Virus record (IMG/VR): IMGVR_UViG_3300032053_000494
Coordinates: 1-24,538 of that record
DNA: 24,538 nt
Origin: a virus
Reading direction: 5' to 3' (one strand)
The position numbers were made by a program, and so were the translations under genes. Numbering within the stretch: position 1 is the first letter of the stretch; each line of letters begins with the position of its first letter. Positions 328-24,119 of the stretch are shown here, piece by piece. The notes under the pieces were generated by a model. The model was given only the letters and a program-made list of their open reading frames with translations. It was not told where the DNA came from and did not search any database.

Positions 328-330
328 GTT

Positions 331-1725: not shown

Positions 1726-1734
1726 GGATATAGC

Positions 1735-6306: not shown

Positions 6307-6950
6307 TGGCCACCGCGATGACCTACACCTCTCTTGTCCAAGACTTGCAGCAGTACTTGGAACGGGGGACTCCTGATGACCCCACAGTATTTGACCAATT
6401 GCCCAGACTCATTAACCTGGCTGAGCGAAGTATCGCCACTGAGTTGAAAATTCTGGGCTTCATCAATGTGGTGACTTCAACCCTGACTGCTGGGGTCTCA
6501 GTATACGCCAAACCTACACGTTGGCGCGAAACTGTGAGCATCAATTTTGGCTTGGGGGCTAGTCAGGTGCGAACACCTCTTTTCCCCCGGAGCTATGAGT
6601 ATTGTCGTTCTTATTGGCCTGATGAGGACATTCAGGGACAGCCGTTGTTCTATTCTGACTATGACTACAACAACTGGTTGATTGCCCCCACCCCGAATGC
6701 GAACATGCCATTTGAGGCGATCTACTACCAGCTGCTACCTTTACTGGACGCTGTGAATCAGACCAACTGGCTGACCGATTTCGCACCTAATCTACTACTG
6801 CATGGGACTCTCCTGAAGTGTACTCCATTCCTGAAGAACGATGAAAGGATCCCAACTTGGCAGACTCTTTACGCGACCGATTTGCAAGCCTTTAACACCC
6901 AGGACTTAGGCAGGATTATTGATCGCACTACTTCGAGGCAAGAAGCATGA
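6306..6950 (+). CDS. Phage adaptor protein, SU10/P22-gp4-like
   Basis: This 214-residue protein starts at ATG 6306 (TAATG overlap) behind GAGGGGAG. The features of the adaptor family are in order: LPRLINLAERSIATELK (residues about 29-45), a KPTRWRETVSI strand, LFPRSYEYCRSYWPDED, FYSDYDYNNWLIAPTPN, a YYQLLPLLDAVNQTNWLTDF strand, and a C-terminal APNLLLHGTLL helix with PFLKNDERI and a DRTTSRQ end. Its length is typical. Such proteins bind the portal as a dodecamer and connect it to the nozzle or fibres. It lies between the candidate lysis block and the second fibre gene. With the longer adaptor at 331 it gives this phage two related neck rings. Confidence 0.82.
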   Translation: MATAMTYTSLVQDLQQYLERGTPDDPTVFDQLPRLINLAERSIATELKILGFINVVTSTLTAGVSVYAKPTRWRETVSINFGLGASQVRTPLFPRSYEYCRSYWPDEDIQGQPLFYSDYDYNNWLIAPTPNANMPFEAIYYQLLPLLDAVNQTNWLTDFAPNLLLHGTLLKCTPFLKNDERIPTWQTLYATDLQAFNTQDLGRIIDRTTSRQEA

Positions 6951-8659: not shown

Positions 8660-10170
8660 TGGCACTCAAACCTGTCAGAATCCAATCCCGTCCTGGCATC
8701 AAGCGAGATGGGACAGTTCTTGAGGGCGATGTCTATATTGATGGTCAATGGGTCCGATTCAATAGAGGTCTTCCTCGGAAAATGGCCGGTTACCAAGCGG
8801 TTACGGCTACTCTACCTGAGCTAGTTCGAGGAATGACTAGTTTCTCGGCCAATTCTCTCCAGTATTTGCATCTTGGGAGTGCGACGAAGCTGGGTCAATA
8901 CATCACTAACTCAGCAGGGAATTTGTCAGCTTTCAATAATCGAACTCCAGCAGCGTTGGTCAACAGCAGTGACAACTTGTGGCAATTCGATCACTTCTAT
9001 GACTCAGTGGCCGCAGTAACTCGATTGATCGCACATGCCGCCCCTAATTTGTCAGCGATTGATTCCACGCTCAATCGAGCCATCTGGTTCGGGACTGATA
9101 CTGCGGCTGCCGTATTAACTGACACCACGTTGGCTCAAGTGAGCGGAGGCATTGTTGTTCTTGGCCCCTACCTGTTCTCTTTCGGGAATGATGGGAATAT
9201 CAACTATAGCGCTGTGAACAACCCTACTGCGGCTGGAGCTTCAGCGTTCATTACTCAGCAGAAGATTGTCAAGGGGATGGTTCTGAGAGGTAATGGCTCG
9301 GGTCCAGCAGGGTTGTTCTGGTCCCTAGACTCCCTAATTCGAGCCTCTTTCGTGGGGGGAGTTACTGTTTGGAACTTTGACACGATCACCTCAGAGTCGT
9401 CCATCCTGTCAAGTCAGGGAGTCATTGAGTACGATGGCATCTACTTCTGGGCTGGGGTTGATCGGTTTCTGATGTTCAACGGCGTTGTTCGTGAGATCCC
9501 GAACACCTACAATAACAACTGGTTCTTCGATGGTTTGAACATTAACTATCGCCAGAAAGTGTTCGCTTTCAAAGTTCCTCGCTGGGGTGAGATCTGGTGG
9601 TGTTACCCACGGGGTAATGCCACTGAGTGTACTCATGCGGTCATTTATAACGTCCGGGAGGGGTCTTGGTACGATACTGAGCTTCCCGATGGGGGGAGGA
9701 CCTGCGGGATTTATGCCAAGGTCTTTGAGCACCCGTTCATGACAGGACTGGTAGCCAACGCTACTCCGGCGTATACTCTATGGCTACATGAGAGTGGTAC
9801 TGATCGGATTGAGGCCTCAAGTGTTAACCCCATCCAGTCGTTCTTTAGCACGAATGAGATCTCAATGATTACTCAAGAGGAGTCAATAGACAAGTCTCTC
9901 CGGGTGGCTCGAATTGAACCAGACTTTGTTCAAGTTGGCGATATGACTGTCACGGTGGTCGGGCGCCAAAATTCTCGTGCCCCTTTTGTTGATGGACCGA
10001 CGTTTACTTTCGGTGATACTGCTCCTCTGCCTGAGGATCAAACCATTAAGCTGAAAGAGATCGCACGTCTCATGACTTTCAAATTCGAATCCAATACAGT
10101 GGGGGGAAACTACGAGATGGGAGAATCCCTAGCCCATATCGAACCAGCAGATGGAAGGATTCAGTCATGA
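8659..10170 (+). CDS. Tail nozzle-like protein (P22 gp10/SU10-type)
   Basis: The start is ATG 8659, overlapping the previous TAA, giving 503 residues; an upstream TTG at 8632 lies inside the previous gene and is unlikely. The N terminus (RIQSRPGIKRDGT, then GQWVRFNRGLPRKMAGYQ) matches the opening of nozzle proteins of podovirus-like tails. The body is strand-rich with repeated aromatic turns (LWQFDHFYD, LFSFGNDGNINYS, GIYFWAGVDRFLMFNG, WGEIWWCYPRGN, GSWYDTELPDGGR) consistent with a beta-propeller. The C-terminal part is a beta-sandwich-like region ending in EMGESLAHIEP. Nozzle hexamers close the lower end of the portal-adaptor channel. The Shine-Dalgarno is weak, so translation probably couples to the upstream gene. 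The assignment is by motif resemblance, not by search. Confidence 0.75.
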   Translation: MALKPVRIQSRPGIKRDGTVLEGDVYIDGQWVRFNRGLPRKMAGYQAVTATLPELVRGMTSFSANSLQYLHLGSATKLGQYITNSAGNLSAFNNRTPAALVNSSDNLWQFDHFYDSVAAVTRLIAHAAPNLSAIDSTLNRAIWFGTDTAAAVLTDTTLAQVSGGIVVLGPYLFSFGNDGNINYSAVNNPTAAGASAFITQQKIVKGMVLRGNGSGPAGLFWSLDSLIRASFVGGVTVWNFDTITSESSILSSQGVIEYDGIYFWAGVDRFLMFNGVVREIPNTYNNNWFFDGLNINYRQKVFAFKVPRWGEIWWCYPRGNATECTHAVIYNVREGSWYDTELPDGGRTCGIYAKVFEHPFMTGLVANATPAYTLWLHESGTDRIEASSVNPIQSFFSTNEISMITQEESIDKSLRVARIEPDFVQVGDMTVTVVGRQNSRAPFVDGPTFTFGDTAPLPEDQTIKLKEIARLMTFKFESNTVGGNYEMGESLAHIEPADGRIQS

Positions 10171-10391
10171 CCATTAACCCCCAGGGGATGACCGTTATCG
10201 AATGGACTGACGCGATGGCCTTCTTGCTTAATGGCTCTCCTCCCACGCAGAAGCTGTTGGATCCGACCGATTGGAAGACTTGGGGCAGGAGTCTTTTGCA
10301 GACTCTTCCTGACGGTCCGAACGTCGATGAATTTGAGGACTGGAGGGAATGGGCCATGAGACTTAACAGTACTGAAGAATTTGGGGGTTGA
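10167..10391 (+). CDS. Small conserved-looking phage protein after the nozzle gene
   Basis: This 74-residue protein starts at ATG 10167 (ATGA overlap) with GGAAGGA upstream. It is acidic and Trp-rich: VIEWTDAMAFLLN, then DPTDWKTWGRSLLQ and FEDWREWAMRLN. No membrane segment or catalytic motif is visible. Its tight position between the nozzle and the internal-protein genes suggests a virion assembly role, for example as a tail or plug component. I do not recognise a named family. Confidence 0.75.
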   Translation: MTINPQGMTVIEWTDAMAFLLNGSPPTQKLLDPTDWKTWGRSLLQTLPDGPNVDEFEDWREWAMRLNSTEEFGG

Positions 10392-10393
10392 TT

Positions 10394-13117
10394 ATGGCAA
10401 GAACTTACACTCCACCCGCAGGTGACTTACTTCGATACGGTCAAGGAGCTGAGCAACAAATGTTCTCTGATTCGAGCGAGGCTCGAACACCTGTAACTCC
10501 TGGAGGCTTCGATCTTGGTGAGATTCCTGTTACCGGGGTTTCCGGACTAGGGCCGTTAGGAAGCATGGGGGATTTTAGTCCTCCGGGCGGAATTAATGCT
10601 CCCATTACTTTCGGGGGGGATGGTCCCAGTCCAGGAGGCGGGGGAAGTCTTCTGGGAAACACTGATTTGTCTGGCGCTTGGGGAGCTGTCAAAAATGGGG
10701 CTGAGAATGTCAGTAACTTTGTTGTAGACCATCCAGGTTGGGCCGGGCTCATAGGGAGTGCTTTAGGAGTTCCTGCTGCTGGCCCGCTAGCCGGATTGTA
10801 TTCTTTAACTGGTGGCATTGGGGGAGGTCTTGACACAAATTCCGGCTCTGGATTTGGGATGGAGGGAGGTTGGGGTGGAGGCAATTTTGGTGGGGGCGAT
10901 TGGGGAGGGTCTAGCTTCGGGGGTTGGAGTAATCCGGGCAATTGGGCTGGTAGTGATTTCTCTCCCCAAGGCGTGACAGCAATGGCGGCGAAAGGAGGAG
11001 CGGTGAGAAGAAATTTCCAAACGGGCGGTCTCGCCCAGTTAGCTCAACAAACCGGTCAAGCGATGGGGGCTAGTCCTGAAGAGACTCAGGAAGCAGCCCA
11101 AGGACTTGAGCAGATCTTCCAAACCCCTGGTGGACCTCAGGAGCTCTTTACCTCAGCTGCTCGTGCGGGGATGAATCACGCTCGAGGAGGTCGGATCGAA
11201 TCGGGGCGTACTGTTTGCATGAGGAAGGGCGGTCCTGTTAACTATGCCACGGGGGGACTAGCCTCTGCCGCTCATCGTGTGGCAGGTAGTGGAACTGGCG
11301 ATGATTCGATTTTGGTTCACATGACCGAGGGCGAGTTCAATAACTTGAGGTCGGCCTGGGGAGAGCCTGACATTAACCCTCGAACGGGAATGCCAGAGTA
11401 CAGCTGGCTTGGTGACAAAGTAAAGAGTGGTTGGCACAGTCTGAAAGGCGGGGTTAAGAAGGTCTTCCAGAACCCCATTTTTCAAACTGTGGCTCCTATA
11501 GCTTTGGACTATTTCTTCCCCGGAGCAGGTAGGGCTCTAGGAACTTGGCTGGGGGCTTCAGCCGGTACTGCTAATGTCGTAGGGAATGCAGCCATTGGTG
11601 CCGGCATGGGAGCCCTGGCCGATGGGAAGAAAGGAGCTTTGTCAGGGGCTATCTCGGGGGGGATTAGAGGAGGTGGTGGGGCGATGGCCGGTAAAGCCCT
11701 TGGAGTCTCGGGGAAAATGGGGAACGCCCTGGGGACAGCGCTTCTTCAGGGAGCCAACTCGAGTCTACAAGGAGGTAGCTTTGCTCCTGCCGCTGTGATG
11801 GGAGGGTTGCAAGGTTATTTCCAAGCTCCCGAGGTAGCCTCCCTAACTGATTCTGCCGAGGCAGCTGCGGTTCCTCAGATCGATCCGGCTACGGGGATGG
11901 CAGTAGAGCCCATGGGTATCCAAGGGGATGCCCCCCTTAATGATCTCGATGCCAAGATTCGAGCGGGTAATCCTCGGGCTACGATGGCTAAGCCCCAACC
12001 TGGAGCGAGTTGGGGAGTGACCGCTCGAAAATATGCTTTGCCCATCATGGGAGGTTTGGCTTTGGCTAGCGCCCTGAGCGGCAGGCATCAGTCGACTGTG
12101 GGGAAACCTATTCCGAACCAACCGGGATTTGATTCGCCTCTCACTAAGCTGCCCTTTAATCGAAACTCTGAGACCCCGGCGATTGATTACTTCACCTATG
12201 GGCAAACAGCAAACCCCAACCCGGGCGAACAACAATTCTTCGGGGATAACGCCGTACCTCAACCGGGGTTGGCTCAAGGGGGGTTGCTCCAAAGCGAGCA
12301 CATGCCAGCAGTTAAGGGTCCTGGATCGGGGAGAGATGATCATATCCCCGCCAACCTGTCCGATGGTGAGTACGTGATGGATGCCGAGACAGTGGCCCTG
12401 CTGGGTGACGGATCAGGCGATGAGGGTGCTCGTAGACTGGACGAGATGCGAAAAAATCTGCGAAAACACAAGGCTCAGGGTTTATCGAAGGGGACTCACT
12501 CACCTGATGCAAAACGTCCTGAGGAATATGCCGGGATGAGGGATTACGCGAAAGGTGGGAAAGTTCGGAATGTTACGGCTCTCTTTAATAAAGAAGGCCG
12601 GATCGTGCACCCAGGCGAGAAGGTCACCGATTTCCGAGGCACGGAATGGATTGTCACTGGGCATGCACCCCCCAGGCATGAAGGCTCTACTGGTCGAGTT
12701 TGGGTTCGTCATGTTGACGACCAAGAAGGTCCAGGGAGTACGCGAGAATTCTTCCCCGGTGTCATGGATTTGGAAATCCGAAAGCCTGAGCTCAAAAAGA
12801 ATGGGGGTCGAGTGGATCTGGCGAAGGGGGGTATGATCCTCAGGGGGCCTCGCAAGAGATCGCCAGGTAGTGGCGGGGGATTTCAAGTGAGACGAATTCG
12901 AGTTGATGGGCAACCGAGTCATATTATCTCACCCGACTATACCGGGCGAAAGGAATTCCCTCGAGAAGAGGCTGAGGCTCATGCCGAGAATATGATTCGG
13001 CTAAATGACGGTGTGGACTACAAGGTCTATGGCATCGGGGGCGAACTGGCCGATACGGCCGAAGATGAACTGTTGCAAGAAATGCTGAAGCACATTACGA
13101 AAGGAGATGCAGAATGA
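10394..13117 (+). CDS. Gly-rich internal virion (ejection-type) protein with KGG motifs
   Basis: The start is taken as ATG 10394 (907 residues); TTG 10388 is an in-frame alternative. In order: a Pro/Gly-rich head; a hydrophobic glycine segment near 120-145; a Gly/Trp/Phe low-complexity stretch (153-190); AAKGGAV at 198; HARGGRI at 262 and MRKGG shortly after; a GSGTGDDSI...TEGEF motif (298-315); a glycine-zipper region (about 399-440); a second, better GPGSGRDDHIPANLSDGEYV motif (642-661); DYAKGGKV at 717; a compact beta module (GEKVTDFRGTEWIVTGH, STREFFPGVMDLEI, about 735-795); and DLAKGGMI at 808. GDD-x-IPA-x-LSDGEY motifs and glycine-zipper segments occur in phage internal and tail proteins that pass through the cell envelope. 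Ejection is inferred. Confidence 0.72.
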   Translation: MARTYTPPAGDLLRYGQGAEQQMFSDSSEARTPVTPGGFDLGEIPVTGVSGLGPLGSMGDFSPPGGINAPITFGGDGPSPGGGGSLLGNTDLSGAWGAVKNGAENVSNFVVDHPGWAGLIGSALGVPAAGPLAGLYSLTGGIGGGLDTNSGSGFGMEGGWGGGNFGGGDWGGSSFGGWSNPGNWAGSDFSPQGVTAMAAKGGAVRRNFQTGGLAQLAQQTGQAMGASPEETQEAAQGLEQIFQTPGGPQELFTSAARAGMNHARGGRIESGRTVCMRKGGPVNYATGGLASAAHRVAGSGTGDDSILVHMTEGEFNNLRSAWGEPDINPRTGMPEYSWLGDKVKSGWHSLKGGVKKVFQNPIFQTVAPIALDYFFPGAGRALGTWLGASAGTANVVGNAAIGAGMGALADGKKGALSGAISGGIRGGGGAMAGKALGVSGKMGNALGTALLQGANSSLQGGSFAPAAVMGGLQGYFQAPEVASLTDSAEAAAVPQIDPATGMAVEPMGIQGDAPLNDLDAKIRAGNPRATMAKPQPGASWGVTARKYALPIMGGLALASALSGRHQSTVGKPIPNQPGFDSPLTKLPFNRNSETPAIDYFTYGQTANPNPGEQQFFGDNAVPQPGLAQGGLLQSEHMPAVKGPGSGRDDHIPANLSDGEYVMDAETVALLGDGSGDEGARRLDEMRKNLRKHKAQGLSKGTHSPDAKRPEEYAGMRDYAKGGKVRNVTALFNKEGRIVHPGEKVTDFRGTEWIVTGHAPPRHEGSTGRVWVRHVDDQEGPGSTREFFPGVMDLEIRKPELKKNGGRVDLAKGGMILRGPRKRSPGSGGGFQVRRIRVDGQPSHIISPDYTGRKEFPREEAEAHAENMIRLNDGVDYKVYGIGGELADTAEDELLQEMLKHITKGDAE

Positions 13118-14145
13118 GCGTCCTTGATTTCTTATTCGAGGGCAAGCCACCGCAATCAGTTACCACTTATGGGACTAAGACCGACACCATTCCTCAATGG
13201 ATGTCGGACTACACTCAGGGGGTAATTGGAAAGGCCAATGCCGTAGCTGCTGAGCCCTACCAGGCCTATGGTGGGCCTCGGGTGGCTAGTTTTACTCCCG
13301 ATCAGCAAGCGGCGTTTGAGGCTACTCGGAACAATCAAGGGATAGCTAATCCTTTCATCAATGAGGCTGCTGCTGGCAATCGGCAAGCATCAGCCGTCAA
13401 CCCTTTGGCCGCTGCTTCTCCATATCTCAGTAAAGCGGGTGGTAGTTGGACAGACCCGGGTGTAGCTGACAGCTATATGAATCCCTACATCCAGAATGTT
13501 CTCAACCGGAATCAGACGCTGGCTCAACGAAATCTGACTGAGAATTTCATCCCGGGTTTGCAAGACGCCTTTACCTCAGGTGGTTCGTTCGGTGGTACGC
13601 GAATGGAGGAGATGGGTCTTCGTGGAACCCGAGATATCGCCGAAAACCTGAACGAGCAGAACTTGGCCTCATTAGCCGGAGCTTACGGGCAAGGCGCAAA
13701 TATCTACGGAGCTGACGCCTCGCGGGCGGGGAATGTCGGAACCGCAGTGGCCAATGCCTCGGGGATGGGCGCTGACATCGGGTTTAAGGGTGCGCAACAA
13801 AGTGGAGCTCTGGGAGAGTTAGCTCAGAGCACTGGTCTGAAAGACACAGCCGCACTCGAGACCATCGGGGGGGAACAGCAAGGTTTAGGTCAGAAGAGCC
13901 TAGACACAGCTTATAAAGATTTTACTCAGCAACGGGACTATCCCCGCGATACCATCGGGTGGATGAATTCCGTGGTGAAAGGGATGCCGTACTCCAAGAT
14001 CAGCAATGTCTCTGAGACGGGGCCCTCACAGACCTACCAGCCATCCCCCTTGTCGCAATTGGCCTCAGCCGGATCGGCGATCTACGGGATTAATCAGATG
14101 AGACAGAAACGGGGTGGTTTGATTCGAGGGGGGTACGCACGATGA
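13114..14145 (+). CDS. Internal virion-type protein, 343 residues
   Basis: This protein starts at ATG 13114 (ATGA overlap) behind AAGGAG. The N-terminal part has PQWMSDYTQGVIGKA, then PYQAYGGPRVASFTPDQQAA (residues about 48-67), a sequence type I associate with a phage protein family found next to ejection or tail genes. The middle is Gly/Ala-rich helical sequence: NPYIQNVLNRNQTLAQR, GSFGGTRMEEMGLRGTRDIA, and AGAYGQGANIYGADASRAGN. Near the C terminus are SPLSQLASAGSAIYGINQMR and the basic end KRGGLIRGGYAR, again a double-Gly motif of the locus type. No enzyme motif is present. By context between two large KGG proteins it is probably packaged with them. Confidence 0.72.
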   Translation: MSVLDFLFEGKPPQSVTTYGTKTDTIPQWMSDYTQGVIGKANAVAAEPYQAYGGPRVASFTPDQQAAFEATRNNQGIANPFINEAAAGNRQASAVNPLAAASPYLSKAGGSWTDPGVADSYMNPYIQNVLNRNQTLAQRNLTENFIPGLQDAFTSGGSFGGTRMEEMGLRGTRDIAENLNEQNLASLAGAYGQGANIYGADASRAGNVGTAVANASGMGADIGFKGAQQSGALGELAQSTGLKDTAALETIGGEQQGLGQKSLDTAYKDFTQQRDYPRDTIGWMNSVVKGMPYSKISNVSETGPSQTYQPSPLSQLASAGSAIYGINQMRQKRGGLIRGGYAR

Positions 14146-17084
14146 AACGAAAGAAGCAGTACCGCTTCAAGAAAGGCGGCTTGGCCATGGCCGAAGGCGG
14201 CGAGTTCGATGACCCGTCCCTTTACGATGACGAGCTGGACTCGGAGGACGAGGGGGGCTCGACTAATAACCAGCTCCTGACTCTACTGACTCAGAACATG
14301 GGGACTACTACTGAGGCAAAAACCCAGGCTCAAAAGATTCTCGATAATTACCAATCGGGGGCGACAAGCGACGAGGAAGACGAGCTTGTTAATCGGATGG
14401 AAGAATCAGCTGACACCACCAGAGCAACTCTGAAGGCCGCTCGTGAGAAGCTGATGAGTGAGAAGTACAACGATGCGGGTATGTGGTTCAAAATGGCCGG
14501 AGCCTTGGCAGCTCCCACCAAGACGGGATCCTTCTTTGAATCAGCCGGTCGAGCAGCTGACGTAGCTGGTGAGGAAGTCGGCAAGAAAGATATTTTTGAA
14601 AGAGCCCGGGATAAAGAAGTCCTGGGGTATGACACCGCTGCTGATGCCATCGACCAAGGGACCATTTCTAACCGTCTGAAGTTACTCCAAGCCCGTCAGT
14701 TGAGCGAAGCAGCTCTAGCTCGGTCAGCCTTGGGTGTTTTAGGTAAGCCGACCGCAAATGCCAGCTTGGCGAGAACAGATCCTCGATTCCATGGGGCCCA
14801 AGCCCTTGATGCGATCTATCTCAAGGACTATCTCCCCTTTATTAGTGGCGGATCTGCCAAGGCAACTAAGGCCCTATACGAGCTGGGTTTGGCTGAGCGC
14901 GAACTCCAATCAGGCAATGATAAAATTACCGGTCCCATAGTCGGGACAATTCGATCGGTCTCGGTACCTTACATGGGCGAGGTTGGCGATGCCGTGGCTG
15001 ATGTTCTCTGGCCCACTGGAGGAAACGTCAAAGCTATGGTGGAGGGTAACATCCTCGAATCATTGCGTCAAGTTTTAGGTAGCCAGTTTACCGAGAACGA
15101 GGGCAAGCGGATCTTGGCCAACACTTACAACCCACGTCTGGATGAGAAAATTGTGGCTAAACGAGTTACAGCCCTAAGGCTCTCACTCGAAGAAGCCCTG
15201 AAAGACAAAAATCGAATGGCCACCTATTACCAGACCCATGGTACTCTGGCGGGTTATCCAATCAAGCAGCATCACATCGAGGATTTCGGCCATTATGATG
15301 ATGGCCAGCCCAATGATGCCAAGGGAGAGGATTATAAACTTGATCCTCAGGTTGAGTTTGACACCTATATAATGCCTAGTGGCGATAGGTTTCAGGCTCC
15401 TAAGGGGGCTACCAAAACCAAAATTCTCGAGTACTATCGCCAGTTGCATCCCGAGAAGAATATGGGAAAGGATGGGAGAGAGATTCCCCAGGGTCATTTC
15501 AAAGGGGGTCGAATTAGGTCTACTCGTCAAGGTATCGCTAATTTTGCCGAAGGGGGTCCAGTTTATTTCTCAGAGGCTCCTGACGAGGAACCTGAAGGTC
15601 CTTCTATGCTCGAACAATTTAAACAACAATTAGATCCGGGGGATATCGTTACTGCTCCTTTCGGGGCTGGAGCTGGTTCTCTGATCGGATTAGGGGCTGT
15701 GGGGTTGGGCACTCGCCTTGAAGAAATGCTCCACCCCGAGCGGAAAATAAGCCCCGGTGAGAAAACTTACCTCAAGGCTCTTCGAGTTGGGAATGAGGAT
15801 CTCTCTGAGACTGGACTAAAAATTAAAAGAGCCCGAAAACAGGGAGTGCCTGCCACTTTAATGGACGCCGGAAGTCCAGCAACTCGAGCCCTGGCTGAGC
15901 GTGCTTTAATTCAAGGCGGTGCACGAGCAGAGCAGGCTATTGATGAGATCGAAAGTACTCGCAACAATTCGCGTGATCGTGTAGCTGCACGAGTAGATGC
16001 TTCTTTGAAGCCTCTGCCCTACTTTGACAGTCAAAGAAAGCTAACGGATGCCCTCTACAGCAACTCCAAACCTCTCTATGCCGCAGCCTACAGCAAGTAT
16101 CCCGGAATTGCTGAATCGGCAGTACCGGCTTTCAAAAAGATTTTTGATTCACCCGATGGCCGGAGAGCCGTTAAAGTCGGACTGAGACTTTTGCGAAATC
16201 AAGGCAAGACGATAGGGAAGGTTGACGCAGTGGGGATGGTCAATAAACCATCGCTTGAATTCCTTGACTATGTCAAACGCGGGTTCGATCAGATTATCTC
16301 GAAAGAGGAAAAGAATGGACCGACGGCTCTGGGTCGATCCCAGCGGCAATTGCGTAATCAACTGAGGGATCAGCTGGACCTTGTGTCTCCCGAATACACT
16401 CAAGCTCGGGCACAATACGCAGGTGATCTTGAGGTGCTTGACGCTCTAAAAAGTGGGCGAGAGGAATTCCACACTCTACAACCTGATGAAATTTCCACTC
16501 AATTGGCTGGAATGTCTACGGCTGAGAAACAAGCCCACCGGACAGGCGTGGCTCAGCATCTCTTCGAGTTAATTCACGGCCCCTATACTGACATGAATGC
16601 CGCTCGGAGAATTATAGGATCTCCGGCGATGGTGCAACGACTCAATCTTCTTTTCCCGAAACCGGCTGACGCTCGGATCTTTAATGAGGCCCTTAATCGA
16701 GAGATGAGCCTATTCGATCGACAACGCCAAATGCACCGACGGGCAGAACAAGGAAGACAGACGCGGATGGGTAGGGAGCTAGCTACTGAGGCTTCCCCCC
16801 TGAAGGAGTTCGGTGATTCAACTTTAGGCCGAGTGGTGGGAGTCTGGAACCAGCCCTCTCTAACGATGACTCCTGATCAAGCCGACGAGGTTGTTGATAT
16901 TCTCCGACGAGGAACCCCTCGAGAGGTTAATCGAACTTTGGCCCGATTCCTGCCTCTACAAGCTAGACAAATACGCCTGAGGACTCGTAGGGCTCGAGGG
17001 GCCAAGCTAGGGGCTGCCATTGGCGCTTTGGTTTCGCCCTTCATTAATGAGCCTTCTCCTACCGAAGAAGAACCTGAGGAGTAG
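14142..17084 (+). CDS. Large internal virion-type protein with two halves joined by KGG/EGG motifs
   Basis: This 980-residue protein starts at ATG 14142 (ATGA overlap). It opens with RFKKGG and AMAEGG (residues 8-20) and an acidic stretch. Residues about 50-450 are mostly helical and include GPIVGTIRSVSVPYMGEVGD (from 264), DVLWPTGGNVKAMVEG and a small YIMPSGDRFQAPKGATKTK unit. HFKGGRI (453) and NFAEGGPV (467) mark a joint. The second half has a glycine-rich hydrophobic segment (APFGAGAGSLIGLGAVGLG, about 502-520), then a long helical region (KKQGVPATLMDAGS-type sequence, DASLKPLPYFDSQRKLTDAL, SPEYTQARAQYAGDLEVLDAL) that resembles large phage and polyvalent proteins. It ends in a glycine-zipper helix (GAKLGAAIGALVSPF) and an acidic tail. 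The membrane-active segments fit ejection into the envelope; this is inference. Confidence 0.72.
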   Translation: MKRKKQYRFKKGGLAMAEGGEFDDPSLYDDELDSEDEGGSTNNQLLTLLTQNMGTTTEAKTQAQKILDNYQSGATSDEEDELVNRMEESADTTRATLKAAREKLMSEKYNDAGMWFKMAGALAAPTKTGSFFESAGRAADVAGEEVGKKDIFERARDKEVLGYDTAADAIDQGTISNRLKLLQARQLSEAALARSALGVLGKPTANASLARTDPRFHGAQALDAIYLKDYLPFISGGSAKATKALYELGLAERELQSGNDKITGPIVGTIRSVSVPYMGEVGDAVADVLWPTGGNVKAMVEGNILESLRQVLGSQFTENEGKRILANTYNPRLDEKIVAKRVTALRLSLEEALKDKNRMATYYQTHGTLAGYPIKQHHIEDFGHYDDGQPNDAKGEDYKLDPQVEFDTYIMPSGDRFQAPKGATKTKILEYYRQLHPEKNMGKDGREIPQGHFKGGRIRSTRQGIANFAEGGPVYFSEAPDEEPEGPSMLEQFKQQLDPGDIVTAPFGAGAGSLIGLGAVGLGTRLEEMLHPERKISPGEKTYLKALRVGNEDLSETGLKIKRARKQGVPATLMDAGSPATRALAERALIQGGARAEQAIDEIESTRNNSRDRVAARVDASLKPLPYFDSQRKLTDALYSNSKPLYAAAYSKYPGIAESAVPAFKKIFDSPDGRRAVKVGLRLLRNQGKTIGKVDAVGMVNKPSLEFLDYVKRGFDQIISKEEKNGPTALGRSQRQLRNQLRDQLDLVSPEYTQARAQYAGDLEVLDALKSGREEFHTLQPDEISTQLAGMSTAEKQAHRTGVAQHLFELIHGPYTDMNAARRIIGSPAMVQRLNLLFPKPADARIFNEALNREMSLFDRQRQMHRRAEQGRQTRMGRELATEASPLKEFGDSTLGRVVGVWNQPSLTMTPDQADEVVDILRRGTPREVNRTLARFLPLQARQIRLRTRRARGAKLGAAIGALVSPFINEPSPTEEEPEE

Positions 17085-17087
17085 ACC

Positions 17088-18971
17088 GTGGCTAAAGGAA
17101 AACCATTCAACCGGCTTGCCCAGTACCTACAGGCGAAAGCTCCCCAAATGGGGATGTTCTCAACTCTTGACGAGCTCGTTCAGTCAGCTCCGTTCGAACA
17201 AGCTCCTTTAGAGGAATGGAAACGCTACCTTTCCCCTGGAAAGATCTTCGAGCGAGAGGGAGTTCAGTTTCCTCTCAAGCAAGAAGAATTGGACTACTCC
17301 AATCTCGGTAAGTTGGAGCCTACTGGCGCTCTGCTCGATAAAGAGTGGTTAAGACGATATATCCATGAACAACGCCCTGAATTTCGACTCACCATAGGCT
17401 CCGCTGATACGTCACCCACGGGACAAGAAGAGAGGAAGGCGATTGATTCGATCTTGCGAGGAGAGACGTCGATGGAGTCTCTCCCTGGAACTACTCTTGA
17501 TGCTAACGGCCTTTATGAGGCGGCTAGGGATAAACTCTACTTTGAATCTCCCAAATATGGTGATTATTCTTTGGCTCCTGGTAAGGATTCCGATCCCGGT
17601 TACGAGGAGAGTATTACGCGATTACGAGACCTTGAAGGCCGCAGTCATTTCAGTCCTGATGTTATGTCATGGTCTCGCTCCTCCCGTCACAATCTATATC
17701 TACCTCCTCGGAAGGCTCGTCTTGTTGATGAGATTCAATCAGATCTCCACTCCCAAGCCGGTGAGAAAGGTTTTGAAGACCCAGAAACTGGATTGTGGTC
17801 TTCTACTGAGGACACCAGGCGCCGTGCAGGATTTTTCCACGCTAGGGATCTGGATGAAGCTAGCCGTGAATTGGCCTTTGGTCATTTGATCCCTCGACGT
17901 CTGGGCTATAAAGATCCGGAGAAAGTAGCTCAACTAGCCAAGGATCGAGCTTTGGCTACTGTCGAAAGTAATGACCGGCTGGCCGAGCGCGATCATCCAC
18001 CCTTCCCGCGTGACCCTCTTACTGGTTCTAATATGGACGAGTTTGGAGCGGAAAGGAAGCGAGCTTTAGCCTACGAGGAGGCTCAAGGTAGGTTGGAAGA
18101 TATCAGCGCACGTCTCAGTCAGGAGGAGCAAAAACCTCAAGATGCACCATTCAAAAACCCGGCCGATTACGCTAGACTTGAGCTTCGAAAACAACTGCTT
18201 AATGCAGTTAATGCTGATGAGGATTCTCTGGCTTTGGTCCGAGGTCAAGACCAGATCGACCGGTATGAAGGCGGTATGGATGACCGTCGGGCCGCAGGTA
18301 TGAGGTATATGTATGACGAGGTGTACCCCTCAGTCCTGAAAAAATTGGCCAAACAGTACGGAGCTGAAATGGAGGATGTGCCTCTCTTAGTTCGATCAGG
18401 TGAGGACCTTCGACTCACGACGATGCAAGACCATGGGTGGGAAACTGCAGACGATGTTCTCGACTCATTGGATGATTTCAACCACTCCGGCGGTCCGGAA
18501 TTCTGGCCTGAAGCGGCAGATACCTATGGGAATCTTGCCTCAGAGCTCGAGGCCAAGCTGCTTGCCTTGTTTCCTACACGAGAGCATAGGTCAAGTTATC
18601 AGCAGGGGATGTTAGAAGATCTCACAGAACTACAACGTAAGATCGATAATCATTACGTTGAAACCAGAGATGCAGCTGAGTTATATAAGGCAGATCGAGC
18701 CGAGGGTCTGCCTGAAGGAGATGCCTTGGCACAAGCTCACCAGGGGCTCACGCATGGTCTTTTGGCCGAAATTCAAAAAAGCTTCCACGCCTTATGGGAA
18801 GACTACACCACTCGCAATGCACAGGGTTGGAGAGACGATGCGGGAGAGGTTCAATTCCCGGCTATGAAACTCACTCCTGAGGTTAAAGAACGAGTTAAGA
18901 AAGCGGGAGTTCCACTTTTTAGCGTAGGTGCGGGGGCCATACTCCAACCAGACGATGATGAACCCCAAGGG
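17088..18971 (+). other. N-terminal polyvalent-protein-type EIQSD domain region of the giant protein
   Basis: Residues 1-628 before the first linker. The start (MFSTLDELVQSAP, LEEWKRYLSPGK, GVQFPLKQEELDYSNLGKL) matches the opening seen in phage polyvalent proteins: a Trp-containing helix followed by a gvk-x-EEL-like strand. HFSPDVMSWSRSS leads to DEIQSDLHSQ (E215-I-Q-S-D219), then PFKNPADYARLELRKQLLNA (from 354), GQDQ (386-389), and GMRYMYDEVYPSVLKKLAKQYG (from 404). That order of motifs is characteristic of the domain. The biochemical activity is not known to me. The linker between EIQSD and PFKN (about 225-350) is charged and helical. Confidence 0.7.
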
Positions 18972-21900
18972 CATGCGAAGGGAGGTTTGATTAGTGACCT
19001 CCTGTATGAGATCGTAGATCGACACACGGGTGAAGTAGTCAGTCAGCCCTATCGGAATAAAAAGCGAGCACGAACTCGTGCCGATAAACTCGACAACGAC
19101 TATGGCGCTTATCGGTACCAAGTTCGCGAGAAGAAACCAGTTGTAACCCCTGACGCTAGTCAAGATACTGGCCTCGAGGAGCTGCGTCAGGACTACGCGA
19201 AAGGTGGACGTGTCTACAATAGCGATGCTCGGAATGAAAGGGCCCGACTATTCGGTCGGCCAAAAGCCCCAAGCCCCGATGAGGCAGTCCAACGCTTAGT
19301 AGATCTAGGTGATTCACAACGAGGCAGTCCTGAGCAGGCGATGCTAGATGTCCAAAAGATATACGGGGGAGGAGTTCTCAGTCCGGTGGTGGAGCATACT
19401 GGAGATCTCATCCACCGAATGTCGCATCATGCGAATTATGGGAGTGCCTACCCCGGATTAGTTCGAGACAAAGTCGAGAAAGTTTTGGATGCTCTGAACT
19501 ACCCCTACGGCTTTCAGCGTGAGATGGGGGAGAACATTGAGCGTAATGCTCGCTACTTTGGCGATAACGAGCCCGGGTCTCGGAAGGAAGCAGTTGACCA
19601 ATCTCTGACTAACTACGCCGATGAGCATCGAAAACTGCCAGCCTACAATCGGCCTCAGTACTTCGCTCGAGAGGCAGCCGTGGCTGTGGGCGAACAACGC
19701 TGGAATGACGCAACCCGACACTTGCAATCCCTGCAGAAGTTACTTGACCTGGGTGATGATGAATTCGAACGGCTGGCTCTCAAAATTGTCCAAGTCCCCA
19801 AAGGCTACGCTAAGGGCGGCAAGATCAAAAGTCTGGGGCATGAAATCGAGAGGGGACTTAATGTTGAGCATCCCGAAGTCGCTCGGTCCTTGTACAGATA
19901 TACTCATCATGGGGATGAGCGAGGACTTCAGAGAGCTTTTAGCTCTGATCAATATGGCGAGTACCAAGATAACCTACACCGACTGCTCCGAATTAACTTT
20001 CCTTCTGGAAAAATACCTGTCACTCATGTGTTCGATTATGCTGGATATCCAACTGGCGGTCCCTACATGTCAGTCTCGACCCACCCTCATTTCGGGGACT
20101 CCTCTGAAGCTCGGGGAAGTGAGGTCAGACGATTTGAGGTTCCGATCGAGGATGTTCTTGCGGCCGGAAATAGAGAGGAGGGGGAATTGATCATTCCCAT
20201 GCCTGAGGATCTGAAAGACGAGGGATATGCGAAGGGAGGGCGCATAAAGGGAGGTCCCCCGGCGAAACCAGCACCGTTGGGGAAGTGCTTCGAGAATAGT
20301 GTTCGTTATATTTGGGCACACCCCGACGAGGACTTGGTCTTGGTTCATGGAACGGTTCAGGGTACCGGTGGCAACGCTGAGGGAAAGCGATATGGCCATG
20401 CCTGGGTTGAGCGCCGAGGCGACTCCCAAGTTCATTTCGAGCATGAACTTCCGCCGGAGCAAAAGGAACGCTTCTCTCGAACGGCGATTGACGTAACAAC
20501 TGATGAGCGATTAAAGAATCCACTAGAGGTTCCTTCAGTCCTGTATCGTGGCGTAGGTCAAGCGAGAGACGTTATGGAATACGACAAAAAGAAAATGAAC
20601 AAACTTTTGAAGTACTCCAAGCATTTCGGGCCTTGGGAATTGCCAGACATGCCCGATGAGTCAGGATATGCTGAAGGCGGTTTAGTCGAACCTGATGAAG
20701 GCCACCGCCTGATCGACCGAGCCAACTTAGGCTTCCAAGAACAATGGAAAACTCTTAACCCTGAGACTGACGAGGCTGAGTGGGGCACCAGGCCGGGGAT
20801 CATAGATGAGACTCTTTCATTGCCTGCCTTTTTAGGTGAGCTGGGAGTTCCGGCCATCCAAAGGCATATATTGCCACCTTTACTTGGTGAGCAACAACCT
20901 CGCCCTGGTGAAGAATGGAAAGCTCCTAACTGGTCACACAAGGCACTCGATCGAGCGATGTCGTTGGAGGAGGCTCTTCGAAAGGAACACAATCTTGCTC
21001 CGCCTCGTGGATTTCTCGAGAATGCGGCTGAAGCAGCAGGAACTATGCTAGGTCAATTGCCAACACCGTGGTCTCGACTAAAATCAGTCGGGCCTTTGGC
21101 CAAGGCCATGAAGAAGATCGCTGGATCTCCCCTCGAGTGGTTCTCACCCACGATCGATCCGAAATTGGCCAACTATGCTGTGGGAACTGGTTTTGGCGGT
21201 GGCTTAGGAACCTTACTTCAGGGACCTGAGGAATCAGACCAGGAGGAGGACGGGCCGAGCGATGCCGAAATAGAACAACTCCTGAACAGGATGTTACTCG
21301 AGCACATGACGAAAGAGGCCATCCATCCCCGAAGACACATACGATCGCCTTTACTTGATGAGCGTGATTATGCCAAAGGAGGGAAGGTAAGTAATATCGG
21401 GGACGCTCTGTACAAGAAGCTTCAAGATCTAGGTGTTTTTGAGGATACCGACCCCGCTGATTGGGAAGATCTGAAGAACGACGATGGCAGTTGGAATCTT
21501 GCTGAGCTTCGAAGCGAACTAGACAATGCTCTCGAGATGCGAGAGGAGATGGACGATTACCTTGACACTGTTGGAATCGATGACTCCATGTCAGGGGATG
21601 AGATAGCTGATAAAGTCAGGGACAAAGTCGTTGACCCTCTTCAGGGTGGTACTCCTACCGATTTACAACGACTGCTGGATGGGCTGAGGGCTGATACTGC
21701 TGATCTGGCCCGTATGCGAACTGAGCAAGATGCCTCAGCTCCGGACTGGCATAAACCAGAACCTCCCGCGAAACTACCCTTACCGTCTGATGTAGAACAA
21801 CTCAAGAGAATGTGGAATCAATCGCATACAGATTGGTGGAACAAAAAACAAACCTGGGAGGAGCACAAAGAGCGTGCCGATCCCATCATGGAGAAAATGG

Positions 21901-24119
21901 TTCGAACTAAACAACAGATTCGGAGAGAGGCAGGGAGGGGAGTTAACAAGCCCATTTTCAAGAAGATGATGGAGATTCCTCATGGCACCAAGGTTACCGC
22001 TGTTCACGGATTGAAATACCCCAAGCCGACTATCGGAACAGTAACTGGGACTAAGACTATCCAGTTAGATGACGGGATTTTCAACTTACCTCGCGTTGAT
22101 TTTGGTGATGGTAAGCCTAGAACGGTATTCCCAGGTGACATTCATGAAGTGTACCTACCTCACGATTTTGCGAAGGGAGGCAAGGTGTCAGGTATAGCAG
22201 ATAAATTAGTTCAAGAACTTCGAGACATGGGGGTCCATCTCGAGCGTGAGATTTATCATGACCTCAAGAACTCTGATGGTTCATGGAATCTTCAAGCTCT
22301 TCGGAAAGAGCTTAAAGAACAGAAAGAAGCGGACGATGAAATGTACGCTGAGGATGAAGAGTTAGGGCTAAATGACTTAGACCCCGATGCAGCCCACGAA
22401 GAACTTCTTAGGCTTTTGAAAGACCAAGGCGGGCGTGGGACAGGGGCATTTCACAACTGGATTTCTCATGGAGAACCGCTAACCCATGATGATCTGTACG
22501 AGGGTTTGGTAGTTGATGCTGATGATGAGCCTATCAAACGACTGATCCAAATGGATCCGAATAGCCCGCACTCAAAAGCGCTACAGGAATATATTGATCA
22601 GGGATACCCCGAGGAAGCCGATCTTTCTTCGATCCAGGACCATGTCTTTAATCTGTACGGTCAGGTGATGAAAAAATTCGACGAGGGGTATGACCCGACA
22701 CCGTTGCAGTCACAAGATCAAAGCGGGCATAGGACTGTAGTGGAACAGATTCTCGGAGGAACGCCAACTGATCTGTCGAAGTTCGATACAGACCGCCCGT
22801 TCCAGCGCCCACCTCTGACGGAGGTGCCGAACAATGAACCGATTGATCTCAACTCTCGGCTCAGGCAGCTTCAGAAAAAATTCGAGAAACACCAAGCTGA
22901 TGAAGTTCAGGATCCCGAAGCGATGGATGACGAACGCTGGGATCAACAACATCGTGGGGACGATGACCTTGATAGTCCGGCGGGCATCTCTCCCGAGGAT
23001 GAGGCAGGTCAGATGGCTTTGTATCAAGAATACGAAGATCTCACTGAGGAATTTCTCGAGGACGCGGGTTCGATGGACCCCGATCGACTTAGTCAATATA
23101 AAGAACTCCTTGATGACATGCATAGTCAGATTACTGAGGGTGGATTGATCGCTCCTGGAGACGATCACACGGCTGAGTACATGCGTCAGATGCGAAAGCA
23201 TGGAAGGCCTGATCCATTCGAGCCCCCACAGATGGCTCCAAAAGAACCTCCAGACGATTTTGCGAAGGGAGGCAAGATCGTGAAACGATCTTCCATCAAC
23301 TTTGTAACTGATGACCTCCAGGCGAAGGGGATGACCCCGAACCAATATGACGCCATCCATAACCCGGCCTATCGGCAAAGTAAAAACGTAGACGCTGAAG
23401 TCGTCCACATGTCTCCCCGGGAGTACATCGAGAAAGCGGCTGAGGTTCTGTCGAAAGCTGAGGGACGGTCGGTAACGTCTCAAGATCTGGTCGAGGAGAG
23501 AATGGCTAACCAGGAGTACCTTCAAAAGATGATTGATGAGATGGAAAAAGGGACTCCATTTGCCACTCCCTATCTCAACTACCAGACCGAATCGCAAGAG
23601 GGGATCCATCGGTCTTTGGCTGCTGAGGCTCTCGGTGCTAAAACTGTCCCTGTAGTCGTGATCAAACCTAATGCCCGAAGCGTACGGGACCGTCAAGCCA
23701 AAGACTTCCATGAATGGGCCAAGACGCAAGAACTTCCTCCGGGATTCGATCGCGAGACGTTAGAGATGTACAGTTTGAATAACGCCTCAGACGTTAGTCC
23801 TGAGCAAGTTAACGAGGTAGCTCAGTCAACCTGGCGGATGTACCTAGACGATCTCGATTTCGCTCGAGAGTCTGGGATACTTTCCGAAGACTACGCGAAA
23901 GGTGGGAAAATCACCTCAGCAGCGAAGACTCTCTCTGAGCTCAGTTATGGCGAGTTGTGGAAGGAACTTGAGAGAGCTGTGGGAGCGAAAGAAGGTCAAG
24001 GCCTGATTGAGGCCGAACTGAAGGATCGTGAAACAGGAGAGAGTTACCGTGAGCAAATTCGTCGGATGAAGGCAGCCGAGGGAATGGCGCTTGATCGATC
24101 TGTTCAAGGAGAAGAGTAA
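17088..24119 (+). CDS. Giant modular polyvalent-type protein with repeated AKGG linkers
   Basis: GTG 17088 behind GAGGAG gives 2343 residues. An N-terminal ~630-residue region carries the EIQSD-type domain. After it, nine copies of [YFH]A[KE]GG[KRL][IV] at A630, A704, A908, A1048, A1195, A1429, A1695, A2059 and A2270 divide the rest into modules of about 74, 204, 140, 147, 234, 266, 364, 211 and 74 residues. The modules are a small YGAYRY unit, a helical unit, an S-T/E-x-E unit, a papain-like unit, a membrane-active helical unit, two paralogous acidic units, a ParB-like unit and a short helical tail. Polyvalent proteins of this build are thought to be carried in the virion and injected to act early in infection; here that is inferred from composition and from position beside the ejection-type genes. 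The reading frame has no break. Confidence 0.85.
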   Translation: MAKGKPFNRLAQYLQAKAPQMGMFSTLDELVQSAPFEQAPLEEWKRYLSPGKIFEREGVQFPLKQEELDYSNLGKLEPTGALLDKEWLRRYIHEQRPEFRLTIGSADTSPTGQEERKAIDSILRGETSMESLPGTTLDANGLYEAARDKLYFESPKYGDYSLAPGKDSDPGYEESITRLRDLEGRSHFSPDVMSWSRSSRHNLYLPPRKARLVDEIQSDLHSQAGEKGFEDPETGLWSSTEDTRRRAGFFHARDLDEASRELAFGHLIPRRLGYKDPEKVAQLAKDRALATVESNDRLAERDHPPFPRDPLTGSNMDEFGAERKRALAYEEAQGRLEDISARLSQEEQKPQDAPFKNPADYARLELRKQLLNAVNADEDSLALVRGQDQIDRYEGGMDDRRAAGMRYMYDEVYPSVLKKLAKQYGAEMEDVPLLVRSGEDLRLTTMQDHGWETADDVLDSLDDFNHSGGPEFWPEAADTYGNLASELEAKLLALFPTREHRSSYQQGMLEDLTELQRKIDNHYVETRDAAELYKADRAEGLPEGDALAQAHQGLTHGLLAEIQKSFHALWEDYTTRNAQGWRDDAGEVQFPAMKLTPEVKERVKKAGVPLFSVGAGAILQPDDDEPQGHAKGGLISDLLYEIVDRHTGEVVSQPYRNKKRARTRADKLDNDYGAYRYQVREKKPVVTPDASQDTGLEELRQDYAKGGRVYNSDARNERARLFGRPKAPSPDEAVQRLVDLGDSQRGSPEQAMLDVQKIYGGGVLSPVVEHTGDLIHRMSHHANYGSAYPGLVRDKVEKVLDALNYPYGFQREMGENIERNARYFGDNEPGSRKEAVDQSLTNYADEHRKLPAYNRPQYFAREAAVAVGEQRWNDATRHLQSLQKLLDLGDDEFERLALKIVQVPKGYAKGGKIKSLGHEIERGLNVEHPEVARSLYRYTHHGDERGLQRAFSSDQYGEYQDNLHRLLRINFPSGKIPVTHVFDYAGYPTGGPYMSVSTHPHFGDSSEARGSEVRRFEVPIEDVLAAGNREEGELIIPMPEDLKDEGYAKGGRIKGGPPAKPAPLGKCFENSVRYIWAHPDEDLVLVHGTVQGTGGNAEGKRYGHAWVERRGDSQVHFEHELPPEQKERFSRTAIDVTTDERLKNPLEVPSVLYRGVGQARDVMEYDKKKMNKLLKYSKHFGPWELPDMPDESGYAEGGLVEPDEGHRLIDRANLGFQEQWKTLNPETDEAEWGTRPGIIDETLSLPAFLGELGVPAIQRHILPPLLGEQQPRPGEEWKAPNWSHKALDRAMSLEEALRKEHNLAPPRGFLENAAEAAGTMLGQLPTPWSRLKSVGPLAKAMKKIAGSPLEWFSPTIDPKLANYAVGTGFGGGLGTLLQGPEESDQEEDGPSDAEIEQLLNRMLLEHMTKEAIHPRRHIRSPLLDERDYAKGGKVSNIGDALYKKLQDLGVFEDTDPADWEDLKNDDGSWNLAELRSELDNALEMREEMDDYLDTVGIDDSMSGDEIADKVRDKVVDPLQGGTPTDLQRLLDGLRADTADLARMRTEQDASAPDWHKPEPPAKLPLPSDVEQLKRMWNQSHTDWWNKKQTWEEHKERADPIMEKMVRTKQQIRREAGRGVNKPIFKKMMEIPHGTKVTAVHGLKYPKPTIGTVTGTKTIQLDDGIFNLPRVDFGDGKPRTVFPGDIHEVYLPHDFAKGGKVSGIADKLVQELRDMGVHLEREIYHDLKNSDGSWNLQALRKELKEQKEADDEMYAEDEELGLNDLDPDAAHEELLRLLKDQGGRGTGAFHNWISHGEPLTHDDLYEGLVVDADDEPIKRLIQMDPNSPHSKALQEYIDQGYPEEADLSSIQDHVFNLYGQVMKKFDEGYDPTPLQSQDQSGHRTVVEQILGGTPTDLSKFDTDRPFQRPPLTEVPNNEPIDLNSRLRQLQKKFEKHQADEVQDPEAMDDERWDQQHRGDDDLDSPAGISPEDEAGQMALYQEYEDLTEEFLEDAGSMDPDRLSQYKELLDDMHSQITEGGLIAPGDDHTAEYMRQMRKHGRPDPFEPPQMAPKEPPDDFAKGGKIVKRSSINFVTDDLQAKGMTPNQYDAIHNPAYRQSKNVDAEVVHMSPREYIEKAAEVLSKAEGRSVTSQDLVEERMANQEYLQKMIDEMEKGTPFATPYLNYQTESQEGIHRSLAAEALGAKTVPVVVIKPNARSVRDRQAKDFHEWAKTQELPPGFDRETLEMYSLNNASDVSPEQVNEVAQSTWRMYLDDLDFARESGILSEDYAKGGKITSAAKTLSELSYGELWKELERAVGAKEGQGLIEAELKDRETGESYREQIRRMKAAEGMALDRSVQGEE
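18975..19196 (+). other. Small YGAYRY module between linkers 1 and 2
   Basis: Residues 630-703. After AKGGLI comes one short unit: YEIVDRHTGEVVSQPYRNKK followed by a basic helix (RARTRADKLDNDY) and GAYRYQVREK, then a flexible acidic tail up to the next linker. The pattern is a beta hairpin plus a helix, and it recalls small repeated modules in other phage proteins. The function is unknown. Confidence 0.5.
19809..20228 (+). other. Module with S-T-S/E-x-E pattern, possible ADP-ribosyltransferase-like fold
   Basis: Residues 908-1047. PYMSVSTHPHFG (from P992, with S995, S997, T998) is followed by FEVPIEDVLAAGNREEGELIIP with E1031-x-E1033. This spacing and the terminal E-x-E before a hydrophobic strand resemble the second and third motifs of Arg-Ser-Glu-type ADP-ribosyltransferases. 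The first motif is not clear: where a YRG-like Arg strand would be expected I read PVTHVFDYAG. The module may be a degenerate transferase or an unrelated fold. The E-x-E loop alone is weak evidence. Confidence 0.3.
20229..20669 (+). other. Papain/NlpC-like cysteine-peptidase-type module of the giant protein
   Basis: Residues 1048-1194. After the linker, GKCFENSVRYIW places C1067 at the start of a helix, followed by LVLVHGTVQGTGG (H1087). KRYGHAWVE gives H1104 in a strand, and RTAIDVT gives D1135. A Cys at a helix N terminus, then a His strand, then an Asp/Asn strand is the order of papain-like and NlpC/P60-like enzymes. The HAWVE plus D arrangement also resembles transglutaminase-like domains. 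The C-terminal part has VLYRGVGQARDVMEYDKKKM. Activity and substrate (peptidoglycan, a host protein or the phage protein itself) are unknown. Confidence 0.5.
20670..21371 (+). other. Helical, potentially membrane-active module
   Basis: Residues 1195-1428. A charged start (AEGGLVEPDEGHRLIDRANL) leads to LSLPAFLGELGVPAIQRHIL and then FLENAAEAAGTMLGQLPTPW. The latter is an amphipathic, small-residue-rich helix of the kind seen in ejection proteins. A glycine-rich stretch follows (YAVGTGFGGGLGTLLQG) and then an acidic helix. Membrane contact is possible. No catalytic motif is visible. Confidence 0.4.
21372..23261 (+). repeat. Two adjacent paralogous acidic modules
   Basis: Residues 1429-1694 and 1695-2058 both start with the linker and the same sequence type. 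KVSNIGDALYKKLQDLGV with DLKNDDGSWNLAELRSEL in the first matches KVSGIADKLVQELRDMGV with DLKNSDGSWNLQALRKEL in the second. Both later contain GGTPTDL. The first adds a long helix and a small beta unit (GTKVTAVHGLKYPK, RVDFGDGKPRTVFPGDIHEV). The second adds a longer acidic helical region. They are best explained by internal duplication followed by divergent growth. The function is unknown. Confidence 0.7.
22162..22184 (+). repeat. 23-bp direct repeat at a module joint, copy 1
   Basis: This stretch encodes (D)DFAKGGK at the start of residue block 1695-2058. It is identical, base for base, to positions 23254-23276 at the end of that block, and the flanking bases differ. The two copies lie in the same frame 1092 bp apart. 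Confidence 0.85.
23254..23276 (+). repeat. 23-bp direct repeat at a module joint, copy 2
   Basis: This is an exact match to 22162-22184, starting the ParB-like module. Together the copies bracket one module of 364 residues, which is the arrangement expected if recombination at the joints can gain or lose a module in frame. Confidence 0.85.
23262..23894 (+). other. ParB-like module of the giant protein
   Basis: Residues 2059-2269. VDAEVVHMSPREYIEKAAEV is followed by ATPYLNY and then QEGIHRSLAAEALGAKTVPV (E2171-G-x-H2174-R2175). This is the E-G-x-H-R-x3-A core and the following strand of ParB/sulfiredoxin-like domains, as found in phage ParB-like proteins. Such domains in injected proteins are proposed to act on DNA or as nucleotide-dependent switches. 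The Q before EG differs from the usual G/H, and I see no HTH domain with it. The rest of the module is helical. Confidence 0.6.

Follow-up and report, generated by a model that had tools for sequence, protein, structure and literature searches.

The window, i.e. the whole stretch of DNA analysed, comprises the 24,538 bases of a linear virus record, and its open reading frames resemble tail genes. The ORF at positions 331–1386 matches the "tail adaptor" of ctpbd312 as well as proteins of the Caulobacter phages RW, GB2A, RLK and KcrB. ORFs 6306–6950 and 8632–10170 match PHROG virion structural families. ORF 1735–5253 encodes a tail-fibre-like protein of 1172 aa; several internal repeats of about 150–200 residues were noticed by eye in its translation (signature KSRGAT..IVQLNDSLG..DMPGRLVF..TTPDG). 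The last gene of the tail cluster, termed P0001, is an intact open reading frame with a GTG start. P0001 and the features discussed with it are listed below.

10388–13117 (+): tape-measure-like ORF; matches tape-measure PHROG families; five linker-type motifs (HARGGRI, LAQGGLL, YAKGGKV, KKNGGRV, LAKGGMI)
12545–12565 (+): the YAKGGKV linker of ORF 10388–13117, where the RW homologue terminates
12569–12793 (+): module after this YAKGGKV; found on its own in L184–L187, as an ORF of about 75 aa
14142–17084 (+): ORF of 980 aa; phrog_5880, a function-unknown family; motifs FKKGGLA, MAEGGEF and FAEGGPV
17088–24119 (+): P0001, linker-joined multi-module protein of 2343 aa
17088–18971 (+): block 1, aa 1–628; EIQSD-type domain, matched by the VDEIQSDLH pattern and by eye
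18972–18992 (+): linker 1, HAKGGLI (A630); in the model outside the folded core, pLDDT <50
18993–19193 (+): block 2, aa 636–702; folded core at about aa 636–684
19194–19214 (+): linker 2, YAKGGRV (A704); in the model outside the block 2 folded core, pLDDT <50
19215–19805 (+): block 3; aa 740–884 match part of the linker-free gp47 of Salicola phage SCTP-2
19806–19826 (+): linker 3, YAKGGKI (A908), from the motif scan
20226–20246 (+): linker 4, YAKGGRI (A1048), from the motif scan
20667–20687 (+): linker 5, YAEGGLV (A1195), from the motif scan
21369–21389 (+): linker 6, YAKGGKV (A1429); starts block 7, a paralogue of block 8
22167–22187 (+): linker 7, FAKGGKV (A1695); inside a 23-nt exact DNA repeat (22162–22184) in common with linker 8
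23259–23279 (+): linker 8, FAKGGKI (A2059); inside the other copy of this repeat (23254–23276)
23892–23912 (+): linker 9, YAKGGKI (A2270); DNA matching the YAKGGKV linker of ORF 10388–13117 at 20 of 21 positions

The nine copies of [YFH]A[KE]GG[KRL][IV] that an earlier note had reported in P0001 (at A630, A704, A908, A1048, A1195, A1429, A1695, A2059 and A2270) are all present, and 2,000 residue shuffles of P0001 yielded no match to the motif. Phage proteins with at least three copies of [YFH]A[KED]GGx[VIL] per polypeptide are here grouped as GG-linker-joined proteins, a group defined in the present analysis; P0001 belongs to it with its nine copies. The same note described ten dissimilar blocks. 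Blocks 1, 2 and 3 do have separate and mutually unrelated relatives, but the description is overstated because blocks 7 and 8 are related from the linker onward: block 7 (from 1429) and block 8 (from 1695) are paralogous, with 36% identity over 121 aa beginning at the linker. Among the blocks, only these two are akin.

Pfam and PHROG searches gave no significant match for any P0001 block, a comparison with the catalogued polyvalent domains gave none either, and a PDB sequence search with P0001 yielded no match. Peptide patterns found no direct P0001 homologue in IMG/VR. None was seen in 20 related records, a comparison of low information value, and no close relative with another module set was found. 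Three assignments of single blocks were considered and rejected. Block 4 as an ART domain gave a probability of 0.1 in hhalign against three ART-PolyVal domains. Block 9 as ParB has a PHROG E-value of 0.099 only and an unconvincing pairwise match, and is retained as a lead. For block 5 as a papain-like domain (a Cys and an HAW motif seen by eye), searches gave no support. Regions similar to block 1 are found in large linker-free phage proteins (L305–L309), which end shortly past the equivalent of GVPLFS. In one of these, a 2762-aa ORF of L309 without GG linkers, the EIQSD domain is joined to a region that appears by eye to be radical-SAM-like, and to other parts.

Related copies of the motif are present in three neighboring open reading frames: ORFs 10388–13117 and 14142–17084 (motifs listed above), and ORF 13114–14145, whose C-terminus, KRGGLIRGGYAR, is linker-related. 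The motif thus belongs to the gene cluster and not to one protein. A broader linker pattern was used on window ORFs and control ORFs; it has no match in five other ORFs of the window, four of them of tail or virion type, and none in 24 long ORFs (23,590 aa) from control phage loci. The complete genomes nearest to the tail cluster of the window are those of the Caulobacter phages RW/GB2A and ctpbd312. They show no match to P0001 at E ≤ 1e-3, and the motif is almost absent from RW. Between its capsid and adaptor genes, ctpbd312 encodes a protein of 452 aa in which seven linker-type motifs are found. RW gp66, the homologue of ORF 10388–13117, stops at RYMDGGRV; the window ORF has YAKGGKV at this position and then continues with a further module. 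It may be added that two tail-cluster proteins of ctpbd312 (L158, MW202545; positions 10833–12071 and 12075–13994) are extremely cysteine-rich, with runs such as CCSCCCSCCCSCCC; their counterparts in RW and the window have no such cysteine runs.

The nucleotide sequences of the linkers are more alike than expected. The A-K-G-G codons of P0001 are identical in 7 of 28 pairs, where 1.06 are expected from the codon usage of the gene (p = 0.001), and eight other giants together show 15 identical linker-codon pairs, about 2.2 being expected. Direct repeats of at least 16 nt within positions 10388–24119 are found at linkers only. The exact 23-nt copy begins the unrelated blocks 8 and 9, and the 20/21 copy is common to two different genes. 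From the excess of codon identity and the linker-only repeats it follows that linker DNA is copied between joints, and therefore that the linker also acts as a short homology seam. Between phages the codons vary widely while the linker peptide is the same. This suggests selection on the peptide as well, an argument weakened in that the loci were found with a peptide pattern.

In IMG/VR the GG linker is found in hundreds of phage proteins, among them giants that have 7 to 18 copies each. At least 120 stretches match a DNA pattern for YAKGGK[IVM], and among the matches listed the motif lies inside an open reading frame in 118 of 120 viral loci. A residue-permuted DNA control (YGGAKK, same bases) is found in 27 stretches in the whole of IMG/VR. 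Across 84,980 species of bacteria and archaea, the pattern D[YF]AKGGK gave 98 genomic matches, 49 of them in open reading frames and none multi-copy. Among the matches listed, homologues of the window tail genes are present in 66 of the 120 viral loci, and the motif ORF is on the same strand as the tail-gene homologues in 70 of 70 cases, typically within about 3 kb.

Most of the motif ORFs beside tail genes encode small proteins, in which the motif is located near the C- or N-terminus or is repeated in tandem at intervals of about 10 residues. There is a moderate enrichment at the C-terminus (33 motif copies within 25 aa of it, 20.5 expected); with both termini pooled there is no terminal bias (40 copies, 39.8 expected). 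It should be noted that the loci were chosen by the motif, hence tag-like use may be over-represented. Proteins such as those of L046, L023 and L110, of about 70–125 aa and encoded 5′ of the tail adaptor gene, consist almost entirely of KKGYAKGGKVAKMAGGGM-type repeats, and the copy number differs among phages. In 26 otherwise dissimilar small proteins (e.g. L012, L079, L114, L122) a common C-terminal tail is found, YAKGGKV-x-RADG(I/C)A-x-(K/R)GKT(R/K)G-x-MV, in which RADG(I/C)A-x-(K/R)GKT(R/K)G-x-MV forms a second conserved peptide after the GG motif.

Modules found after linkers exist as stand-alone proteins of 48–75 aa in other phages. Block 2 of P0001 represents an entire 51-aa protein of Pseudomonas phage phiPto-bp6g and one of 48 aa in Boevelstad; many IMG/VR phages encode it by itself as a small ORF. 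A protein of L176 opens with a block-2-like domain and ends in KARGGKVSTSSRGDGIAQRGKTRGRMV. A conserved arm, SRGMGxIxPSKMP..RRDDTDFTxYAKGGKV, is present in 40 proteins (36 unique). Directly behind the YAKGGKV that ends it, at least seven unrelated modules are found: M1 (AGNYTKP), M2 (IQxAIKKPG), M3 (GLYANIHAK), M4 (CYxKVKxRYKV), M6 (KLLxKPGSL), M7 (RIRDIMDRPRPKA) and others. The modules are also permuted in pairs (M3-GG-M2, M6-GG-M1, M6-GG-M3, M7-GG-M1 and M7-GG-M2). M1–M4 are also found as single linker-free proteins (gp22 of pelagiphage HTVC034P is an instance of M1), and M3 and M2 have counterparts in PHROG families, of 50 and 59 positions respectively, whose matches start at the residue after the linker. 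The unfused forms of post-linker modules thus include phrog_16028, phrog_20603, HTVC034P gp22 and the phiPto-bp6g and Boevelstad proteins. Unlike the linker-joined proteins, such stand-alone small phage genes encode single modules, mostly without a linker. Where the joint of fused modules falls outside the search pattern, GG is directly upstream in 43 of 43; the figure for random 22-residue stretches is about 16%. M3 and M2 provide an example of a fusion. They are neighboring genes in L225, L124 and L057, and form a single protein via MAKGGKF in L249 and L218, a joint that retains the ATG-GCT of the downstream gene.

Giants with 7 to 18 linkers are found in L466 (two proteins), L472, L525, L261, L275, L470, L422 and L453. 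Several Pfam domains (LPD11, ArdA, InPase, ART-PolyVal, DUF6496) begin or end 0–9 residues from a linker. In several large linker-bearing proteins, domains of the polyvalent type are thus placed between linkers. LPD11 has its two linkers at distances of 2 and 3 residues, InPase begins 1 residue and DUF6496 0 residues after a linker, ArdA begins 5 residues after one, and ART-PolyVal lies 8 and 9 residues before one. Across 13 proteins only 1 of 96 linkers lies within a Pfam domain, where 9.1 are expected (P = 0.0006), and this one belongs to a minor-tail-type protein.

Between the proteins of L275 and L453 the difference is a single 78-aa module, whose gain or loss coincides exactly with linkers: L275 has ...SGV|YEDGGSV-module-YADGGFMNNV|YAKGGKI... 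where L453 has ...SGV|YAKGGKV.... At the L453 joint the DNA switches from left to right flank at the first linker codons. In ten giants, 57 of 141 local-homology ends are at most 12 aa from a linker, as against 28 expected, a number never reached in 5,000 simulations; the 57 is an upper estimate because linker-to-linker matches can stretch alignments to a linker. The residue pattern aromatic-A-K/D/N-G-G-x-aliphatic is kept in the ten giants, with the third residue varying.

Three other observations were made on these proteins. In L275 the decapeptide YADGGFMNNV or a near-copy stands before a second linker three times (aa 313–330, 635–651, 725–741), giving double linkers. In L247 (positions 5508–11189, minus strand) a 1894-aa protein has ART-PolyVal at its start and a glycosyl hydrolase 108 region at its end, where the glycosyl hydrolase 108 domain and a peptidoglycan-binding segment lie between two GG linkers (aa 1692–1881). 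In L422, the gene at positions 1–5610, directly upstream of the linker-rich giant, encodes a DarB-like protein of 1870 aa that includes SNF2 helicase and zeta-toxin-type kinase domains.

AlphaFold2 with an alignment of block 2 homologues predicts a fold at about aa 636–684, with pLDDT mostly 85–95. Both flanking linkers have pLDDT below 50 and lie outside the folded core in this model of block 2 alone; the model marks the end of the fold and not linker disorder, because its alignment covers block 2 only. Both linkers in an L249 model also lie in segments below pLDDT 50, the overall confidence being low. Low pLDDT at the linkers in part reflects the missing alignment there. A Foldseek search of the PDB with the block 2 model gave no significant match (best E = 1.7).

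The earlier note held that the motif marks module boundaries, and offered a joint for module swapping and a packaging or ejection tag among its possible meanings. The boundary claim is supported by the block 2 model, by the avoidance of Pfam domains and by the module changes at linkers in other phages; as regards the modules of the window, the evidence covers blocks 1, 2 and 3 and one module of the neighboring ORF. The swapping joint has direct sequence evidence, also at the DNA level, from other phages that share the linker rather than from close relatives of P0001. In those phages whole modules are gained, lost and exchanged at the linker, and module number and content vary while the linkers stay, a check that note had proposed for homologues. 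The tag has drawn circumstantial support, i.e. terminal use and tandem repeats beside virion genes. A processing site, another meaning put forward in that note, gained no support.

P0001 is probably a polyvalent-type chain of cassettes, with [YF]A[KED]GGx[VI] as a portable joint between domains that would serve as flexible spacer and recombination seam, may once have been a tag, and would belong to a protein delivered by the virion. Modules that evolve independently, several of them encoded elsewhere by small genes of their own, would have been assembled into P0001 as cassettes. A whole module with its linker would be inserted or removed at the joint, and unrelated modules exchanged behind the same arm, while linker DNA copied from joint to joint would provide the short homology. 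The peptide itself is probably a flexible joint. More tentatively, it may have begun as a terminal tag of virion-module proteins (at the N-terminus, at the C-terminus or as tandem repeats), a tag that would probably have served in docking or packaging, and stayed as an internal linker once tagged genes fused. A docking, packaging or processing signal is plausible from sequence; a docking or packaging role is suggested by small proteins, encoded next to virion genes, in which the peptide forms the terminus or is repeated. Like other polyvalent proteins for which this is known or predicted, the finished protein presumably travels in the virion and enters the cell together with the DNA; in the case of P0001 the one indication is the location of its gene in the tail cluster.

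A bolder proposal would make the GG peptide a general address of early-delivered phage proteins, both terminal tag and internal linker. In unrelated phages a virion component or protease would recognise it, and it would double as the seam at which recombination adds cargo modules to a delivery chain. The proposal is a speculative possibility that we consider doubtful. P0001 could also be a polyprotein, in which a phage protease or one acting in cis cuts each GG linker in the head or after entry and frees the modules, much as the prohead protease processes virion proteins. A processing site would be expected to appear as just such a short, constant peptide separating unrelated domains, metallopeptidase processing of polyvalent proteins was proposed by Iyer et al. 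(PMC5512222), and DarA of P1 loses its N-terminal part to the prohead protease (PMC12810830). Cutting would, however, reduce the small tandem-motif proteins to decapeptides, many motif copies are just 1–25 residues from a C-terminus, and searches of P0001 and the window revealed no protease; this explanation is unlikely.

Alternatively, the peptide may be without function and the DNA repeat kept solely because modules recombine there. The excess DNA identity among linkers, the exact repeats between unrelated blocks and the breakpoints at linkers all agree with this. Yet the same peptide is found across phages despite widely differing codons, the ten giants keep the residue pattern although its third position varies, and the peptide is present as well in positions with nothing to join (protein termini, tandem repeats), so that a seam alone is quite improbable. 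A fossil ribosome-binding site, in which the AAGGAGG of a downstream gene came to be read as K-G-G on gene fusion, would fit the GGAGG found in 5 of the 9 P0001 linkers. This origin is rejected as highly improbable on codon usage in relatives, where the first Gly codon is GGA in 2 of 130 motif copies, and on the L225/L249 comparison, where the motif comes after the retained ATG-GCT and the linker is not derived from the ribosome-binding site. Chance or low-complexity likeness of GG turns has in its favor the similar-looking GG motifs in tape-measure-like proteins, including the neighboring ORF. It is scarcely credible in view of the shuffles, the linker-free control ORFs, the rarity of the permuted pattern, and the distribution in bacterial genomes (half of the matches in ORFs, no multi-copy protein) and in viral loci (nearly all in ORFs among the matches listed).

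Among the closest parallels of the cassette chain joined by a portable GG peptide, favored here, are the polyvalent proteins (Iyer et al. 2017, PMC5512222), phage proteins of very large size with several unrelated domains per polypeptide, a feature also of P0001. The word "linker" does not occur in that paper. Linker-joined giants of other phages hold the polyvalent repertoire (LPD11, ArdA, InPase, ART-PolyVal, RelA_SpoT), and one of them (L422) adjoins a DarB-like protein. The DarB-like protein and the EIQSD-type large proteins that were tested have no such linkers; the joint is therefore a feature of only some polyvalent-type proteins. The Dar proteins of P1 (DarA, Hdf, DarB) are internal head proteins co-ejected with DNA (PMC12810830). 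They resemble the proposed role of P0001 in mode of working, including the cleaved N-terminal part of DarA, but no sequence link to P0001 was found and a repeated linker has not been reported for them (PMC12810830). The open-access literature searched yielded no paper dealing with a YAKGG or FAKGG motif of phages, nor one that combines polyvalent protein, linker, phage and virion.

One short joint, used by many phages to add, drop or swap modules, suggests a general way of building multi-purpose proteins. Many of the anti-defence activities thought to be delivered by phages on entry reside in polyvalent proteins, and how the architectures of these proteins are built is an open question. A recognisable joint shows module borders from sequence alone, even for domains that belong to no known family, so that unannotated giants can be divided into testable modules; it also allows small cargo genes to be predicted. 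If the motif is a tag as well, it would represent a general delivery or processing signal of phages.
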